The notes below the pieces were generated by a model. The model saw only the letters and a list, made by a program, of their open reading frames with translations. It searched no databases and was not told where the DNA came from. The translations under genes were made by a program, and so were the position numbers. Shown piece after piece: positions 2,795 to 54,149 of a stretch of 55,691 bases of DNA. The stretch's first letter is position 1, and each line of letters opens with the position of its first letter. Origin of the DNA: Bacilli bacterium (GTDB lineage: Bacteria; Bacillota_I; Bacilli_A; Izemoplasmatales; Izemoplasmataceae); assembly GCA_016936415.1 (NCBI GenBank), contig JAFGXW010000032.1, forward strand, positions 1 through 55,691, written 5' to 3'.

Positions 2795-2836
2795 AAAGGA
2801 GTTATAACTAGAATTCACTAGTTATTCACTTACAAA
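2795..2836 (+). promoter_or_regulatory. Ribosome site split from start codon by a hairpin
   Basis: The only Shine-Dalgarno sequence (AAAGGAG, 2795-2801) lies 35 nt before the ATG at 2837, far outside normal spacing. Between them is a perfect 8-bp stem (ATAACTAG at 2804-2811, CTAGTTAT at 2818-2825) with a 6-nt loop. Folding leaves 2 + 11 nt, an effective spacing of 13. An in-frame TAG at 2819-2821 rules out an upstream start. The same arrangement recurs before the gene at 26724. Confidence 0.6.
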
Positions 2837-3763
2837 ATGTTCTTCTTTGAAAATTACACGGTAACAAATGTTTTTGTTTTTATTGCGGTAGTAGCAGGGT
2901 TATTATTAATTAATGAAATTACTAGAAGAAATAAAATTTTATCCATCATTTTTTATATCACGATTCCAGTTGTCTTTACATTTACGGTATGGAGAACTGC
3001 GGCAACTTCTGAAAACACAGAAGGAAATTGGTTTGCATGGGTAAAAACGTATTCTGCACTTGCAGGAGTAGTAGGGTTTATGGCATTACGTTATTTTAAA
3101 AAGTTAAGCACAAACAAATATATGTTGTTTTTCCCAGCATTTATCTTGTCGGTGAATATTTTAGAAGCGGTGTTTAGAGATTTTGAAGTCTCTCGTTTAA
3201 ATGGTGTAGTCGAAAATGGATTGTTCTTACAAGGTGGAGTATGGAATATTATAAATGGAATTGCTGGAATTATTAATATCATTACCATTACTGGTTGGGT
3301 AGGAATCAAGATTTCGAATAATAAAAGTCGTGACATGGTTTGGGCAGATCAACTTTGGTTCTGGATTATTGCTTATGGTATTTGGAATATGTCATATGTT
3401 TATAACTGTATTCCAGATAGAGCTTTTTATGCAGGGGTTTCATTAATTTTTGCATCCACTTTTGCTGCATTTGTGGGCACAAAAGGTGTTTGGTTACAAC
3501 ACCGAGCACAAACATTGGCGTTGTGGGCAATGTTTACTTTAACATTCCCTACATATTCAAATACAGAATATTTCAACATTGTTTCAACGCATGCAGATGC
3601 ACCAAAATTAGTGCTTAGTATTTTGGCGATTGTATTCAATATTGGGGTATTGGTTTATGAAATTAAAACCATTATGAAGTCGAAACGAAATCCTATAAAA
3701 GAAGAATTGTATGTCGATACAAAAGCATATAAAGATATTTTAGCAGCAAATAAATTATTGTAA
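2837..3763 (+). CDS. DUF5692-like integral membrane protein
   Basis: This 308-residue membrane protein has about eight or nine predicted segments and conserved-looking aromatic loops (for example NWFAWVKTYSALAGVVGF near residue 64 and WADQLWFWIIAYGIWNMSY near 170). From memory it resembles the uncharacterised family DUF5692, whose role is unknown. The C-terminal 35 residues are soluble and charged. It is a single-gene unit with its own promoter (2747-2774) and terminator (3904-3936). Its translation start is unusual because a hairpin separates the ribosome site from the ATG. No transport or catalytic motif is recognisable. Confidence 0.65.
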   Translation: MFFFENYTVTNVFVFIAVVAGLLLINEITRRNKILSIIFYITIPVVFTFTVWRTAATSENTEGNWFAWVKTYSALAGVVGFMALRYFKKLSTNKYMLFFPAFILSVNILEAVFRDFEVSRLNGVVENGLFLQGGVWNIINGIAGIINIITITGWVGIKISNNKSRDMVWADQLWFWIIAYGIWNMSYVYNCIPDRAFYAGVSLIFASTFAAFVGTKGVWLQHRAQTLALWAMFTLTFPTYSNTEYFNIVSTHADAPKLVLSILAIVFNIGVLVYEIKTIMKSKRNPIKEELYVDTKAYKDILAANKLL

Positions 3764-23182: not shown

Positions 23183-23413
23183 AGAAAAACGAGGAACTAG
23201 AGGTAGTAAATTTTCATTTATTGATAGAGACCTAATGGTTGGTGTAAATTAGGAATAAATGTTTATTGAATTAGTCTAGGGAGTTACTTAAATGCAACCC
23301 GTGAGTTTAAGTCGTTGCTCGGCGTTAACGAGAAAAGTGCTAGGTAACTAGAACAAAGGTGGTACCGCGGAAAATTGATTTCGTCCTTATTTTTAAGGGC
23401 GATTTTTTTATTA
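23183..23413 (+). promoter_or_regulatory. T-box riboswitch controlling leuS
   Basis: This leader senses uncharged tRNA-Leu. Stem I can be traced: base pairs CTAGA/TCTAG, an AGTA loop-E element (23205-23208), helix CATTTATT/AATAAATG, and a distal loop closed by CCTAA/TTAGG. The specifier loop on the 3' side reads GAA-TTA-G, giving a UUA Leu specifier at 23271-23273. The conserved T-box (AAAGGTGGTACCGCGG, 23355-23370) is followed by a terminator (23381-23389 with 23394-23402, then seven T). Uncharged tRNA pairing with the T-box should favour the antiterminator and leuS expression. Confidence 0.93.
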
Positions 23414-26611: not shown

Positions 26612-26640
26612 TTGATTATCGAAATGTTAAGTGTTATAAT
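26612..26640 (+). promoter_or_regulatory. Promoter of the 2-oxoacid oxidoreductase operon
   Basis: TTGATT (26612-26617) and TATAAT (26635-26640) are spaced by 17 bases, with TGT before the -10. It gives a leader of about 77 nt. Confidence 0.7.
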
Positions 26641-26648
26641 GTTTTTGG

Positions 26649-26663
26649 TGTAAAACGCTTTCA
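26649..26663 (+). promoter_or_regulatory. cre-like site at the start of the oxidoreductase transcript
   Basis: On the minus strand the sequence reads TGAAAGCG then TTTTACA. That is a perfect CcpA left half followed by a right half one base too far away. It lies just after the promoter, where CcpA usually represses. The insertion makes this a weak candidate. Confidence 0.25.
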
Positions 26664-26684
26664 TTTTAATGCATTTCATAAAGT

Positions 26685-26723
26685 GAGGAGGAAAATTATC
26701 TTTTTGGATAATTAAAACCAATT
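26685..26723 (+). promoter_or_regulatory. Ribosome site split from start codon by a hairpin
   Basis: The strong GAGGAGG (26685-26691) ends 32 nt before the ATG at 26724. Between them is a 7-bp stem (AATTATC 26694-26700, GATAATT 26707-26713) with a 6-nt loop. Folding leaves 2 + 10 nt, an effective spacing of 12. An in-frame TAA at 26709-26711 excludes an earlier start. The geometry nearly duplicates that at 2795-2836. Confidence 0.6.
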
Positions 26724-27377
26724 ATGAAAAGAATTACGATTATCTGTGGGCACTATGGAAGTGGAAAAAGTGAGATTAGTGTAAATTTGGCTTTAAAATA
26801 TAAAATTAACTATTTGATTGATTTAGATATTATTAATCCATATTTTCGCTCAAGAAGTTTATCTGTCATGTTAGAAGAAAATAATATCCATTTGGTTGAA
26901 TCAACGATCAAAAATATGACAGGTAGTGATTTACCGTATGTGAGTGGTGAAGGAGTCGTACCTTTTGTGAATCCTAATATTACGGCCATCTATGATTTGG
27001 GTGGTACGGAAAATGGGGCAAGAGTGTTGGTTCAATTTTTGGATCGAATGAAAGATATGAATGAAGTTGACTTACTTTGCAGTGTGAATATTTTTCGGCC
27101 AGAAACTCATGATGTGAAAAGTATTCTTAAAACCATTGCAATGTATGAAGCAGAAACACAGTTAAGAGTTACTGGCTTGATTAATAATACCAACCTTATC
27201 AATGATACGGTTGAAGAAGATTTGATCCGTGGTGAAGAAATATTATTAGAAGTTAGCAAAATACTTAATATTCCAATTAAGTATACTGTTATAGAAGAGT
27301 CAAGAATGAATTTTAATCACGAATTCCAAGGCGAAAGAATTGACTTAATTCGACATGTCGCCAAGAAATTCTTATAG
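26724..27377 (+). CDS. P-loop ATPase of the oxidoreductase operon
   Basis: A 217-residue P-loop NTPase with a Walker A (GHYGSGKSE) at residues 9-17, DLDIINPYFRSR near 33 (MinD/ParA-like switch I) and AIYDLGGTENGAR near 90 (Walker B). Related ATP-binding proteins often precede 2-oxoacid:ferredoxin oxidoreductase genes in Clostridia. Their job is unproven, and assembly or regulation of the iron-sulfur enzyme is only a guess. Translation starts in the hairpin context described at 26685-26723. The ferredoxin-like subunit follows 11 bases later. Confidence 0.75.
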   Translation: MKRITIICGHYGSGKSEISVNLALKYKINYLIDLDIINPYFRSRSLSVMLEENNIHLVESTIKNMTGSDLPYVSGEGVVPFVNPNITAIYDLGGTENGARVLVQFLDRMKDMNEVDLLCSVNIFRPETHDVKSILKTIAMYEAETQLRVTGLINNTNLINDTVEEDLIRGEEILLEVSKILNIPIKYTVIEESRMNFNHEFQGERIDLIRHVAKKFL

Positions 27378-27388
27378 GAGGAAAGCAA

Positions 27389-27625
27389 ATGGCAAAAGGT
27401 AGAATTATAATTGATATTGACAGGTGTAAAGGGTGCGCATTGTGCACAAATTATTGTCCTGTTCATATTTTAAAGCTGGATGATGAACATACAAATAGTA
27501 GAGGTTATACCCCATTGATGGTTACTGATCCAGACAAATGTATCGCTTGCGCGTTTTGTGCTATTATGTGTCCTGATAGTGTAATTACAGTGGAAAAATT
27601 TATCAAGGAGGTAAACAATGGCTAA
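27389..27625 (+). CDS. 2-oxoacid:ferredoxin oxidoreductase, ferredoxin-like delta subunit
   Basis: This 78-residue subunit passes electrons from the thiamine-diphosphate site to ferredoxin. Two complete 4Fe-4S motifs are visible: CKGCALCTNYCP (near residues 13-24) and CIACAFCAIMCP (near 51-62). A strong GGAGG precedes the ATG. It overlaps the alpha subunit by 8 bases, indicating coupled translation. It belongs to the VorD/KorD type found in four-subunit enzymes. Confidence 0.92.
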   Translation: MAKGRIIIDIDRCKGCALCTNYCPVHILKLDDEHTNSRGYTPLMVTDPDKCIACAFCAIMCPDSVITVEKFIKEVNNG

Positions 27626-28688
27626 AGTGTTGATGAAAGGTAACGAAGCGATGGCACTTGCAGCAATTTATGCTGGATGTGAAGCATTTTATGGTTACCC
27701 AATTACTCCTCAAAATGAATTACCTGAATATTTATCGAAACATATGGCTTTACATGGAAAAGCTTTTGTACAGTCTGAAAGCGAAGTTGCAGCAATTAAT
27801 ATGGTATATGGAGCAGCAGGTGCAGGGGCAAGAGTCATGACTTCCTCTTCAAGTCCTGGTATCGCATTGAAACAAGAAGGAATCACTTATATAGCAGGAG
27901 CAGAATTACCAGCTGTTATCATTAATGTTATGCGTGGTGGCCCAGGATTGGGTGGAATTCAACCATCACAAGGTGACTATAAACAAATTACTAGAGGTGG
28001 TGGAAATGGAGATTATTATTTATATTCTCTAGCACCAGAATCATTACAAGAAGCAGTTGATTTAATCAAAGAATCATTTGACATAGCAGACTATTTCCGT
28101 AATCCAGTTATGATTGCAGTCGATGGATTGATTGGACAAATGATGGAGCCTGTGGATTTTGATCGCGAAGTTCCTAAATGGGATTTATTACCAAAAACTT
28201 GGGCTGCAGATGGTAATCCTCAAGGAAGAGAAAAAAACATTATCAATAGTTTATACTTGGATCCTTTGGTATTAGAACAACACAATTTAAAATTAAAAGC
28301 AAAATATGATGAAATGAGAAAAAATCATCAACGTTATGAGTTAATTAATATGAAAGATGCCGATATTGTCATTGTTGCTTACGGAAGTGTTGCACGTATT
28401 GCAAGAACGGCTGTTGAGATGCTTACTGAAAAAGGTGTAAAATGTGGAATTTTAAAACCAATTACCATTTTCCCTTATCCGGATCAAGCATTCGCAGAAT
28501 TACCAGATTCAGTTCGTAATCTATTGGTCGTAGAAATGAGTACTGGTCAAATGTTGGATGATGTTAAGATTGCCAACGAAGGAAAACTCCCAATACATTT
28601 CTATGGTCGTGTTGGTGGCGTTGTACCTGAGGCAGAGGAAATTGTGCAGGCAGTATTAAAAATAGTGGGTGGTGAAAACAATGGATAA
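27618..28688 (+). CDS. 2-oxoacid:ferredoxin oxidoreductase, alpha subunit (VorB/KorA type)
   Basis: This alpha subunit carries the pyrimidine-binding and CoA-region domains of an enzyme that decarboxylates 2-oxoacids to acyl-CoA while reducing ferredoxin. The 356-residue protein has GNEAMALAAIYAGCEAFYGY, PITPQNELPEYLS, ESEVAAINMVYGAAGAG and SSSSPGIALKQEG near the N-terminus. These are typical of subunits annotated as 3-methyl-2-oxobutanoate dehydrogenase VorB. KorA and VorB are closely related, so the substrate is inferred. The adjacent ptb-buk genes favour branched-chain 2-oxoacids. Confidence 0.9.
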   Translation: MAKVLMKGNEAMALAAIYAGCEAFYGYPITPQNELPEYLSKHMALHGKAFVQSESEVAAINMVYGAAGAGARVMTSSSSPGIALKQEGITYIAGAELPAVIINVMRGGPGLGGIQPSQGDYKQITRGGGNGDYYLYSLAPESLQEAVDLIKESFDIADYFRNPVMIAVDGLIGQMMEPVDFDREVPKWDLLPKTWAADGNPQGREKNIINSLYLDPLVLEQHNLKLKAKYDEMRKNHQRYELINMKDADIVIVAYGSVARIARTAVEMLTEKGVKCGILKPITIFPYPDQAFAELPDSVRNLLVVEMSTGQMLDDVKIANEGKLPIHFYGRVGGVVPEAEEIVQAVLKIVGGENNG

Positions 28689-29442
28689 TGTCAAAACGAT
28701 ATATAAAAAATCAGAAGGATTGAGTGATTTTAATTTAAGTTATTGTCCTGGTTGTACTCACGGTATCATTCATAAATTGGTTGCCGAAACACTTGTAGAA
28801 CTCGACGTTTTGGATCGTTCGATTGGAATCAGCAGTGTTGGTTGTAGCGCATTAAATTATGATTTCTTTAGTTGTGATATGGTGCAAGCTGCTCATGGGA
28901 GAGCTCCAGCGGTTGCTACAGGAATCAAAAGAGTAAAACCAAATACAATCATCTTTACATACCAAGGTGATGGAGATTTAGCAAGTATTGGTATCGCAGA
29001 AGCAATTCATGCAGCTCATCGTAGTGAAAACATTACTATCGTGTTTGTAAATAATGCAATCTACGGAATGACTGGTGGGCAAATGGCACCAACTACTTTA
29101 ATTGGTCAAAAGACAACAACTTCGCAAGGTGGACGTGATGCTCATATTCACGGGTTACCACTTCGAATATCTGAAATGATGGCTACCATTCCGGGAGCTA
29201 CTTATATTGAACGTGTGAGTGTACATAATCCTCAACATGTTCAAAAAGCAAAAAAAGCACTGAAAAAAGCCTTTACCATTCAAAAAGAAAACAAAGGCTT
29301 TACACTGATAGAATTTATTTCAACTTGTCCTGTAAACTGGGGGTTAACTCCTAAAGATGCTATCGATTGGGCAGTTGAAAATATGATTCCTTATTATCCA
29401 CTTGGAGTTTATAAAGACAAGACAGTTGGTGAAGAATCATGA
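28681..29442 (+). CDS. 2-oxoacid:ferredoxin oxidoreductase, beta (TPP-binding) subunit
   Basis: The beta subunit binds thiamine diphosphate through the GDGDLASIG...NNAIYGMTGGQ motif (near residues 100-135). It also has YCPGCTHGI near 22, whose Cys residues belong to the conserved N-terminal pattern. The 253-residue length is normal. I start at the ATG at 28681. A GTG at 28669 is in frame but adds four residues with no better ribosome site. It overlaps the alpha gene by 8 bases and its TGA shares the ATGA of the gamma gene. Confidence 0.92.
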   Translation: MDNVKTIYKKSEGLSDFNLSYCPGCTHGIIHKLVAETLVELDVLDRSIGISSVGCSALNYDFFSCDMVQAAHGRAPAVATGIKRVKPNTIIFTYQGDGDLASIGIAEAIHAAHRSENITIVFVNNAIYGMTGGQMAPTTLIGQKTTTSQGGRDAHIHGLPLRISEMMATIPGATYIERVSVHNPQHVQKAKKALKKAFTIQKENKGFTLIEFISTCPVNWGLTPKDAIDWAVENMIPYYPLGVYKDKTVGEES

Positions 29443-29978
29443 TTAACGAAAAAGTAATTATTGCAGGTTTTGGTGGACAAGGTGTTATGTTAATGGGACA
29501 ACTATTAAGCTATGCAGCTACAGAGAAAAAAATCAATACATTATGGTTCCCATCTTATGGTCCTGAAACCAGAGGTGGAACAGCAAACTGTAGTGTAACA
29601 ATTAGTGACTCGTATGTGAATAGCCCAGTTATATCAACTCCAGATTCAATCATCATCATGAATAAACCTTCTTTGGCAAAATTTCAACCGAAATTGAAAG
29701 CGGGAGGACATCTATTTTTAAACACGTCACTTGTGACTGATGTTGAATGTCGTGAAGATGTAATTGTTCATGAAATTCCAGCAAATGAAATTGCTGCCGA
29801 ACTAGGAAATGTAAAAGTGTCAAATATGGTTGTATTAGGAGCATATTTAGCAATTACAAAATTATTTACTGAAGAAGAAGTTTTGGATATTTTGAAAAAG
29901 AAATTTACCGGATCAAAAGCCAATCTTATTGAAGTAAATAGAAAAGCTTTAGAAGCGGGAAGAAAAGCTGTTTTGTAA
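29439..29978 (+). CDS. 2-oxoacid:ferredoxin oxidoreductase, gamma subunit
   Basis: The gamma subunit completes the four-subunit enzyme. The 179-residue protein has the family opening IIAGFGGQGVMLMGQLL (residues 7-23) and PSYGPETRGGTANCSV near 38, which is diagnostic of KorC/VorA/PorG gamma domains. ATGA overlap with the beta gene shows coupling. Phosphate butyryltransferase follows 12 bases later, placing acyl-CoA use directly after acyl-CoA production. Confidence 0.92.
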   Translation: MINEKVIIAGFGGQGVMLMGQLLSYAATEKKINTLWFPSYGPETRGGTANCSVTISDSYVNSPVISTPDSIIIMNKPSLAKFQPKLKAGGHLFLNTSLVTDVECREDVIVHEIPANEIAAELGNVKVSNMVVLGAYLAITKLFTEEEVLDILKKKFTGSKANLIEVNRKALEAGRKAVL

Positions 29979-29990
29979 GGAGAGATATCA

Positions 29991-30890
29991 ATGTTTAGGA
30001 ACTTTACGCAAGTAGTTGACTATGCTAGAAAATTAGAAACAAAGGATTTAATTGTTGCAAACCCAGAAGATCGTTCGATATTAATTGCCATTAATGATGC
30101 TTTTCAAATGGGGTTAATTCGACCTGTTTTAGTTGGCGATAAAAAGAAAATTCTTGATTTACTAATGGAACTAGGTATCCGAAAAAATGGTTATGAAATA
30201 TACAATGCAGTTGATTCAAAAGATGCTGCATTGGTTAGTGTTAAATTGGTGAGTAAACATTCAAATGCCATTTTAATGAAGGGACATCTTCAATCGAATA
30301 TTTTACTTCATGAAGTGTTGGATAAAGAACATGGATTAAAGATGGACTCTTTATTAAGTCATATTGGTGTTTTAGATATTCCGAATTATCATAAATTGAT
30401 TTTTATTGCAGACGCAGTCATGAATATTCTTCCAAGTGAGAAAGAGAAAATGGAAATCATTGATAATACATTTAAATTTGTCAATAGTTTGGGTATATAC
30501 AAACCTAAAATCGCATTAATTAGCGCAGTAGAAGTTGTGAATGAAAATATTCGTTCAACAGTCGAAGCGAGAAACATTGTAGAAAAATTGAAAGATAGTG
30601 ATGATTTTTACATAGGTGGACCATTTTCTGTAGATATTGCTGTTAGTCATGAATCAGCAAAAACAAAAGGAATTAATCATGTTGTTGCTGGAGATTCAGA
30701 TATCTTGGTTTTCCCAAATATTGAGGCAGCAAATACATTTTATAAATCCACTACTTTTCTTGCAAACTCTACAGCAGCAGGGTTGTTATTAGGGGCATCA
30801 AATCCGATTGTTTTGACAAGCAGAGCTGACTCATATAAATCAAAACTTTACTCAATTGCTTTGGCAGTAGTTAGTACGGATATCTTATGA
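29991..30890 (+). CDS. ptb: Phosphate butyryltransferase
   Basis: Ptb converts butyryl-CoA or branched acyl-CoA plus phosphate to the acyl phosphate and CoA (EC 2.3.1.19). The 299-residue protein matches the phosphotransacylase fold of Ptb. AILMKGHLQSNILLH lies near residue 94, FIADAVMNILP near 138, and ALISAVEVVNE near 177. The C-terminal GASNPIVLTSRADSYKSKLYSIALA is also present. Length is typical for Ptb rather than the longer Pta. AAGGAGAG precedes the ATG. Its TGA overlaps the start of buk. Confidence 0.93.
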   Translation: MFRNFTQVVDYARKLETKDLIVANPEDRSILIAINDAFQMGLIRPVLVGDKKKILDLLMELGIRKNGYEIYNAVDSKDAALVSVKLVSKHSNAILMKGHLQSNILLHEVLDKEHGLKMDSLLSHIGVLDIPNYHKLIFIADAVMNILPSEKEKMEIIDNTFKFVNSLGIYKPKIALISAVEVVNENIRSTVEARNIVEKLKDSDDFYIGGPFSVDIAVSHESAKTKGINHVVAGDSDILVFPNIEAANTFYKSTTFLANSTAAGLLLGASNPIVLTSRADSYKSKLYSIALAVVSTDIL

Positions 30891-31948
30891 TAATTTTAAC
30901 AATCAACCCAGGTTCGACTTCAACTAAAATTGCACTATTTCAAGATTTAGAATGCATTAGTCATGAAACAATTCGACATTCTGAAGCTACACTTAGGGAG
31001 TTTGAAACATTAAAAGATCAAATTCCTATGCGCACAGAATTGATTATGGAATTCTTAAAAAAACAAAGTATGGAACTATCTGAGATTTCAGGCTTCATCG
31101 CTCGTGGTGGTTTGGTAAAACCAGTGAAGAGTGGAATATTTGAAGTGAATCAAGAAATGTTAGATGACTTAAGAAATAACCGATTTGGTGAACACGCAAG
31201 TAATTTAGGTGCAATTATTGCCTATGAACTTGCTTCTATGGTTCAAAAAAAAGCATATATCGCAGATCCTGTTGTCGTCGATGAAATGAGTTCAGTTGCA
31301 AAAATTTCAGGATTAAATGGTATTAGTAGAAAGCCTATTTGGCATGCATTAAATCAAAAAGCAGTAGGTAGGAAATACGCTCAAAAACTAGGATGTAAGT
31401 ATGAGGAACTAAATTTAATTATTGCCCATTTGGGCGGTGGAATTAGTGTCGGTCTTCATAAAAGAGGACGTGTGACAGATGTCAACAACGCTCTAGACGG
31501 GGATGGGCCATTTAGCCCAGAACGTACTGGAAGTTTGCCTGTTGGAGCAGTTTATGAGCTTGCATTTTCAGGACAATATACATTAGAGCAAATCAAAAAA
31601 TTAAATCATGGATTTGGGGGACTTGTATCATATTTAAACAGCAACGATGCAGAAGAAATTGCTGAGATGATTAGTCAAGGACATGTCTTTGCAAAACAAG
31701 TCTTAAAAGCAATGGTATATCAAATTGCCAAGGAGATAGGCTCCTTATATGCTGTTACACGTGGTAATTTAGATGCCATTATTATTACAGGCGGTTTGGC
31801 TTATAATCAAGCAGTTTTACAACCATTATTGGAATACTTAGATCATTTAGGTGAAATTGTAGTATACCCTGGGGAAGATGAACTTGAGGCCTTGGCATAT
31901 AACATGTATTTATGCTTAACAAACGAAATTGAACCAACAGAATATTAA
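30887..31948 (+). CDS. buk: Butyrate kinase
   Basis: Buk makes ATP by transferring phosphate from butyryl or branched acyl phosphate to ADP (EC 2.7.2.7). The 353-residue ASKHA kinase begins ILTINPGSTSTKIALF, the acetokinase-family signature. It has GFIARGGLVKPV near residue 66, LIIAHLGGGISVG near 182 and IIITGGLAYN near 300. With Ptb it recovers the energy of acyl-CoA made by the upstream oxidoreductase. It ends the operon with a terminator at 31951-31979. Confidence 0.94.
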   Translation: MIILTINPGSTSTKIALFQDLECISHETIRHSEATLREFETLKDQIPMRTELIMEFLKKQSMELSEISGFIARGGLVKPVKSGIFEVNQEMLDDLRNNRFGEHASNLGAIIAYELASMVQKKAYIADPVVVDEMSSVAKISGLNGISRKPIWHALNQKAVGRKYAQKLGCKYEELNLIIAHLGGGISVGLHKRGRVTDVNNALDGDGPFSPERTGSLPVGAVYELAFSGQYTLEQIKKLNHGFGGLVSYLNSNDAEEIAEMISQGHVFAKQVLKAMVYQIAKEIGSLYAVTRGNLDAIIITGGLAYNQAVLQPLLEYLDHLGEIVVYPGEDELEALAYNMYLCLTNEIEPTEY

Positions 31949-49423: not shown

Positions 49424-49432
49424 ACGGTTGAA

Positions 49433-49548
49433 TTAATCTTCAGGGCAGGGTGCAATTCCCGACCGGCGGTATAGTCCGCGAGCGTGATAAAGACGCATGA
49501 ACAGGTGTAACTCCTGTACCGATAGTATAGTCTAGATGAAAGAAGATA
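49433..49548 (+). promoter_or_regulatory. FMN riboswitch (RFN element)
   Basis: All conserved blocks are present: ATCTTC-AGGGCAGGGTG, AATTCCCGACCGGCGGT, AGTCCGCGAGC, a variable helix, CCGATAGTATAGTCTAGATG, and GAAGAT closing the P1 helix. Binding of flavin mononucleotide should favour the terminator at 49583-49613 and shut off the riboflavin transporter gene ribU. Confidence 0.96.
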
Positions 49549-49582
49549 TTGTCAATTTAAGATATCCCTTTTTTGAACGAGC

Positions 49583-54015: not shown

Positions 54016-54043
54016 TTGCATAATTATAACAATAAGGTATAAT
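54016..54043 (+). promoter_or_regulatory. Promoter of the antiporter transcript
   Basis: TTGCAT (54016-54021) and TATAAT (54038-54043), 16-base spacer. Transcription would begin near 54050, at the 5' edge of the riboswitch. Confidence 0.6.
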
Positions 54044-54047
54044 TATT

Positions 54048-54149
54048 TTTAGGGAATGATGTTCTCCCTTAGTATTTTACTTAAACCGCTATTAAAGCTG
54101 ATGACTTCTACGTTCTTTTTTTGGCGTAGCCATCAGCTTTTATTTTTTT
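54048..54149 (+). promoter_or_regulatory. Probable fluoride riboswitch (crcB motif) with terminator
   Basis: The leader matches the fluoride aptamer by eye. A GGGA/TCCC helix encloses ATGATGTTC (54052-54067). AACCGCT (54084-54090) follows after a linker, and then the conserved AGCTGATGACTTCTACG block (54096-54112). The terminator takes over that 3' block: 54094-54103 pairs with 54131-54140 and 54108-54112 with 54125-54129, followed by seven T. Fluoride binding should hold the aptamer, block the terminator and turn on the antiporter. Confidence 0.82.

Follow-up and report, generated by a model that had tools for sequence, protein, structure and literature searches.

A probable hairpin-bridged ribosome-binding site ahead of a P-loop ATPase gene of the Izemoplasmatales, conserved by geometry rather than by sequence

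How might a ribosome initiate at a start codon whose Shine-Dalgarno sequence (SD) lies 32 nt upstream, with an inverted repeat in between? This arrangement precedes the first gene (gene 1) of an operon in the stretch of DNA analyzed here, a 55,691-nt window from a 1.49-Mb assembly of the order Izemoplasmatales (148 contigs, 89% complete). A preliminary description had read positions 26685-26726 as GAGGAGG, 2 nt, a 7-bp stem with a 6-nt loop, 10 nt and ATG, and had noted an in-frame TAA; on re-reading, the layout proved exact and the TAA present. We consider it likely that gene 1 has a hairpin-bridged split ribosome-binding site, conserved by geometry rather than sequence; we infer that the hairpin folds in vivo and is needed for translation of gene 1.

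The leader and operon of gene 1

The locus comprises the following features:

26612..26640, + strand: promoter-like TTGATT-17-TATAAT, the likely start of the leader transcript (consensus match only)
26649..26663, + strand: cre-like site TGTAAAACGCTTTCA, of the catabolite repression operator type (consensus match)
26685..26691, + strand: distal SD GAGGAGG, 32 nt ahead of the start codon (direct read)
26694..26713, + strand: candidate bridging hairpin AATTATC / GATAATT with loop TTTTTG (direct read, folding, orthologues)
26714..26723, + strand: A/T-rich 10-nt spacer AAAACCAATT from the hairpin to the start codon (direct read)
26724..27377, + strand: gene for a 217-aa P-loop ATPase (GxxGSGKS motif), the operon's first
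27389..31948, + strand: remaining operon (ferredoxin-like ORF, vorB, beta and gamma subunits, ptb-like gene, buk)

The ATPase found no match in Pfam, NCBIfam or the PDB sequences. Downstream of it, the 78-aa ORF is called ferredoxin-like solely by its Cys motif; the beta and gamma subunits after vorB are those of a 2-oxoacid:acceptor oxidoreductase (VOR), the ptb-like gene encodes a phosphate butyryltransferase-like protein and buk a butyrate kinase. Elsewhere, the window also holds a T-box (23183-23391) ahead of a leucine--tRNA ligase gene, an FMN riboswitch (49432-49551) and a fluoride riboswitch (54043-54117).

Two A residues separate the SD from the stem, which is formed by AATTATC (26694-26700) and GATAATT (26707-26713) around the loop TTTTTG (26701-26706); the ATG follows at 26724, and the leader has no proximal SD before it. 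A T.G closing pair lengthens the stem to 8 bp and leaves a 4-nt loop, at a folding energy of -5.6 kcal/mol. When the region from -100 to +45 is folded, the hairpin pairs have a mean probability of 0.84; the minimum-energy fold of 26640-26780 (141 nt) uses other pairs and lacks this hairpin. The latter fold gave rise to the idea of a bistable switch involving the 3' arm and the start codon, which was dropped upon finding no excess of such pairing over shuffled spacers in the 26 leaders described below (Wilcoxon p 0.86). Since about 5% of the dinucleotide shuffles of the interval fold equally well (p 0.05), the window's own leader is barely unusual by itself; taken alone it is weak evidence, and the case for more than chance rests on the orthologues.

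As to the surrounding elements, the promoter-like sequence is one match found against 1.4 expected in shuffles. The cre-like call relies on a consensus that we take to be the standard one, and sites matching it at 12-13 of 14 positions are present in all 29 of the orthologous leaders considered below that are separate from an upstream ORF. Five leaders of family f3 (L149, L151, L156, L158 and L094) additionally show a second stem-loop, TTTTCCA-TGGAAAA, upstream of the SD, which overlaps the end of the cre-like site and lies close to the presumed transcript start. The 16S end CACCTCCTTTCT, complementary to the SD, was recovered from three of five genomes of the order searched; it was not found in the window's own, incomplete assembly or in G016.

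Spacing and stem sequence among orthologous leaders

Orthologues of the ATPase were found in 70 of 120 relatives; within the Izemoplasmatales, 65 of 90 genomes have one. After dropping G037, where the contig begins inside the gene, 64 of these 65 had readable starts, and they fall into two arrangements. In 35, the ATPase start abuts or overlaps the stop of an upstream ORF (-4 to +3 nt), and none of these has an SD within the last 18 nt; initiation behind the other ORF presumably proceeds by stop-start coupling. This upstream ORF was at one point regarded as a butyrate kinase, a candidate abandoned because all five copies scanned match the amino-acid dehydrogenase model NF035922, albeit below its cutoff. 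The remaining 29 orthologues have a leader of their own, and 26 of these repeat the order SD-hairpin-ATG across eight genera and two families, where a distal SD is defined by a gap of at least 18 nt to the start codon. The other three lack a distal SD and were left out of the statistics on the 26 leaders: in G028 and G031 the SD is near, and G023 (L010) has its own leader and a cre-like site, yet no recognizable SD near or far. Among the 26, G054 additionally carries GGTGA close to its ATG.

Across the 26 leaders, the linear SD-ATG gap ranges from 28 to 50 nt (mean 39.3, sd 5.4), and this stretch folded alone gives a single hairpin in nearly all of them. Subtracting the predicted hairpin leaves 3-13 nt (mean 9.6, sd 2.5), as against a residual sd that averages 7.7 and never falls below 3.9 in 300 sets of shuffled gaps. 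Thus, the residual distance is maintained while the stems lengthen and shorten, which is what bridging predicts. It exceeds by about 2 nt the spacing of ordinary SDs in the genome of the window (7.2, sd 1.6; 128 ORFs).

The stems are AT-rich, with energies of -5.2 to -12.2 kcal/mol, and the shuffle p of individual leaders varies from 0.001 to 0.25. Combined over all 26, p is 7e-19; taking one median per genus for the eight genera, it is 5e-7, and the latter is the safest figure because leaders of one genus are related and do not constitute independent trials. A joint criterion with thresholds set post hoc (single hairpin, SD-to-stem distance of at most 4 nt, stem-to-ATG distance of 6-11 nt, dG of at most -5.5) is satisfied by 23 of the 26 leaders. 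In 300 sets of shuffles, 0.7 leaders per set pass on average and never more than 4; of 688 matched intervals preceding ORF starts 15 pass, and of 5000 random intervals 114.

The stem sequences themselves are mostly unlike between genera. Because MAFFT aligned the arms poorly across groups, we used arm swapping and lists of paired positions in place of an alignment. Arms paired with their own partners give a summed duplex energy of -243.5, compared with -115.7 for permuted partners (sd 12.4, minimum -174.5; 10,000 permutations), with the cut point between the arms taken from each native fold and hence favoring native pairs; the magnitude of the contrast and the shuffle tests nevertheless point the same way. 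The pair lists were matched by order from the outside, which is safe for leaders with identical flanks alone, and were therefore applied to just G056 and G052, which belong to one genus and share the same flanks: three of the outer seven pairs are changed on both sides and all remain paired. The leaders of genus g20 share an inner stem resembling ATCACTTT/AAAGTGAT; in several leaders the remaining pairs belong to an outer stem beyond an internal loop. Together, the recurrence in 26 of the 29 separate leaders and the covariation of the arms bear out the preliminary view that the layout is no accident, including the covariation in relatives whose absence would have counted against it: arms pair with their own partners and the changes between G056 and G052 are compensated.

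The predicted folds are not uniformly strong. Nine of the 26 leaders have a hairpin pair probability under 0.4 when whole leaders are folded in longer context, and local folds put it under 0.3 in G002, G003, G004, G012 and G017. Between SD and ATG, 18 of the 26 carry an in-frame stop, which precludes an upstream start; one (G012) has an in-frame start 4-14 nt past the SD.

These regularities suggest a mechanism. In extended form, an SD 32 nt from the AUG would be beyond the reach of one ribosome using both. Folding of the hairpin in the mRNA would remove its 20 nt from the path and leave about 12 nt, so that the 30S subunit could hold SD and AUG together. Selection would then act on the geometry and not on the letters of the stem.

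A further case in the window and the frequency of the layout

A similar layout had been pointed out at 2795-2839, ahead of a DUF5692 gene (gene 2), and is as described:

2795..2801, + strand: distal SD AAAGGAG (direct read)
2804..2825, + strand: hairpin ATAACTAG-AATTCA-CTAGTTAT (direct read; one copy per genome)
2837..3763, + strand: DUF5692 gene, started from this hairpin leader

Here, TT follows the SD, the arms ATAACTAG (2804-2811) and CTAGTTAT (2818-2825) enclose AATTCA, and 11 nt lead to the ATG at 2837. This leader is confined to three genomes, G000, G016 and G017, which have the core TAACTAG/CTAGTTA in common and 34-35 nt in total from SD to ATG (counted by eye); the other gene 2 relatives shown have ordinary SDs or unclear starts. 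Hence, of the proposal of two matching cases, the layouts stand and the likeness does not: gene 1 keeps its geometry but not its sequence, whereas gene 2 keeps its stem sequence in three genomes. The gene 2 hairpin may serve in bridging or may be a local operator.

The preliminary description had further suggested a regular initiation mode of this organism. That suggestion fails, as just 3 of 343 ORFs match in each of two scans of a sample of its genome (424,342 bases, 28.5% of the assembly). Both scans pick up the two window genes, and each adds one doubtful ORF, a different one in each scan; by chance, 0.37 and 0.85 matches were expected. In 400 kb of G014, from another genus, 1 of 360 ORFs matches, namely the ATPase orthologue, in a deliberately included stretch; in G056, 2 of 326 ORFs match. 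The counts are somewhat low, since the scan missed the known ATPase orthologue of G056, whose start reads ATGATG. Each genome may have a few genes with the SD-hairpin-ATG layout.

One of the two matches in G056 lies before a YhbY-like gene (Pfam CRS1_YhbY; L237:14036-14069) and reads AAGGAG, 1 nt, a 7-bp stem, 9 nt and ATG; it is possibly a second hairpin-bridged gene. A separate observation concerns L064:16174-16206, where GGGGAGAGGTGACTCTCCCC stands ahead of an acetyl-CoA hydrolase/transferase gene; its SD-like sequence is enclosed in a strong hairpin, and the start may be regulated.

Alternative readings and known systems

The hairpin could instead be a regulatory element, switched between open and closed by temperature, a protein or a ligand so as to set translation of the first gene, with bridging merely its folded state. 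Such a role would suit the leader of a fermentation operon that carries a cre-like site, the near-absence of an ordinary SD at the ATPase start throughout the 64 genomes, and the weaker of the AT-rich stems (range -5.2 to -12.2 kcal/mol), which could melt. We nevertheless regard it as unlikely: a protein or ligand site would need conservation, but stem and loop letters vary between genera; no Rfam family was detected in the gene 1 leaders searched; and the 3' arm is not predicted to pair with the start codon more than expected by chance (the Wilcoxon p of 0.86 given above). More precisely, the Rfam covariance models yielded no match at gathering score in the gene 1 leaders of the loci searched, and in the window's own leader gave sub-threshold matches alone, located outside the element. 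Since 5' stem-loops often stabilize mRNAs, the hairpin might also protect the transcript or form an RNase site, its placement between SD and AUG being incidental. Stability would, however, require neither a fixed position nor the loss of a proximal SD, and the position is tightly fixed, with 23 of 26 hairpins at most 4 nt from the SD and 6-11 nt from the ATG, making this account very improbable.

That the repeat acts as DNA, as an inverted repeat bound by a repressor, is plausible for gene 2 alone, where the core TAACTAG/CTAGTTA is conserved in G000, G016 and G017; even there the single copy per genome argues against a regulon site, and the gene 1 repeat varies between genera. For neither gene is an inverted repeat conserved at several sites, and for gene 1 we give an operator hardly any credence. 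Equally hard to credit is that the SD belongs to a different start, such as that of a short leader ORF, from which the ATG is reached by coupling: an out-of-frame start lies 4-14 nt past the SD in 9 of the 26 leaders, but the other 17 have none and the encoded peptides are unrelated. Likewise, no conserved leader ORF of the kind expected of a leader-peptide attenuator follows the SD in the 26 leaders. The hairpin-bridged split site thus remains our preferred reading of gene 1. Going beyond it, we tentatively raise the possibility, rather doubtful as it stands, that the ATPase gene avoids an ordinary SD order-wide, initiating across a hairpin-bridged SD or, behind another ORF, at a stop-start overlap that lacks one, and that selection maintains the hairpin purely as a spring that is sequence-free and length-absorbing; its stability would set, or sense, how fast the ATPase is translated relative to the oxidoreductase encoded on the same mRNA. 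If true, bacteria would possess a class of cis element invisible to sequence-based searches and to Rfam.

Hairpin-bridged ribosome sites are, to our knowledge, known chiefly from two genes of phage T4, and we found no case on a bacterial chromosome in the portions of the open-licence literature at hand. An order-wide case, with stems rewritten and spacing held, would amount to natural mutational evidence for initiation across a folded spacer, and the 26 natural leader variants offer material for determining the length of RNA that can be looped out. Such starts would probably score poorly in gene callers that seek an SD within about 15 nt.

RNA thermometers and other SD-sequestering hairpins resemble gene 1 in placing a small hairpin at the translation start, but in these the SD lies inside the stem. 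In gene 1-type leaders it lies outside, with a mean predicted SD pairing of 0.29 across the 26 leaders; G002 and G003 (0.92 in each) are the exceptions to the absence of a paired SD in the closed state. In E. coli thrS, the hairpin sits upstream of the SD, unlike that of gene 1, which lies between SD and AUG. The likeness is that thrS has a split site in which the ribosome accommodates the folded hairpin (PMC3936740), as is proposed for gene 1.

The closest parallel is with T4 genes 38 and 25, where, according to PMC3014915, a hairpin cuts the SD-AUG gap (22 to 5 nt in gene 38, 27 to 11 nt in gene 25) and destabilizing it lowers initiation. As proposed for gene 1, an over-distant SD is brought back to a working distance by an intervening hairpin. 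The features of such sites recur here: a strong distal SD without a proximal one in 26 of the 29 separate leaders, a hairpin that by predicted fold gives a working gap (weakly in some leaders), and a structure kept in relatives. On this likeness, we provisionally file the gene 1 leader as working in the manner of the T4 split sites. The differences are that the T4 sites belong to phage genes and were tested by mutation and DMS, whereas gene 1 heads a bacterial operon and is known from predicted folds; that the gaps of its leaders, at 28-50 nt, are longer than those of T4 genes 25 and 38; and that T4 gene 25 retains one stem among close T-even phages, whereas the stems of gene 1 have been replaced between genera.
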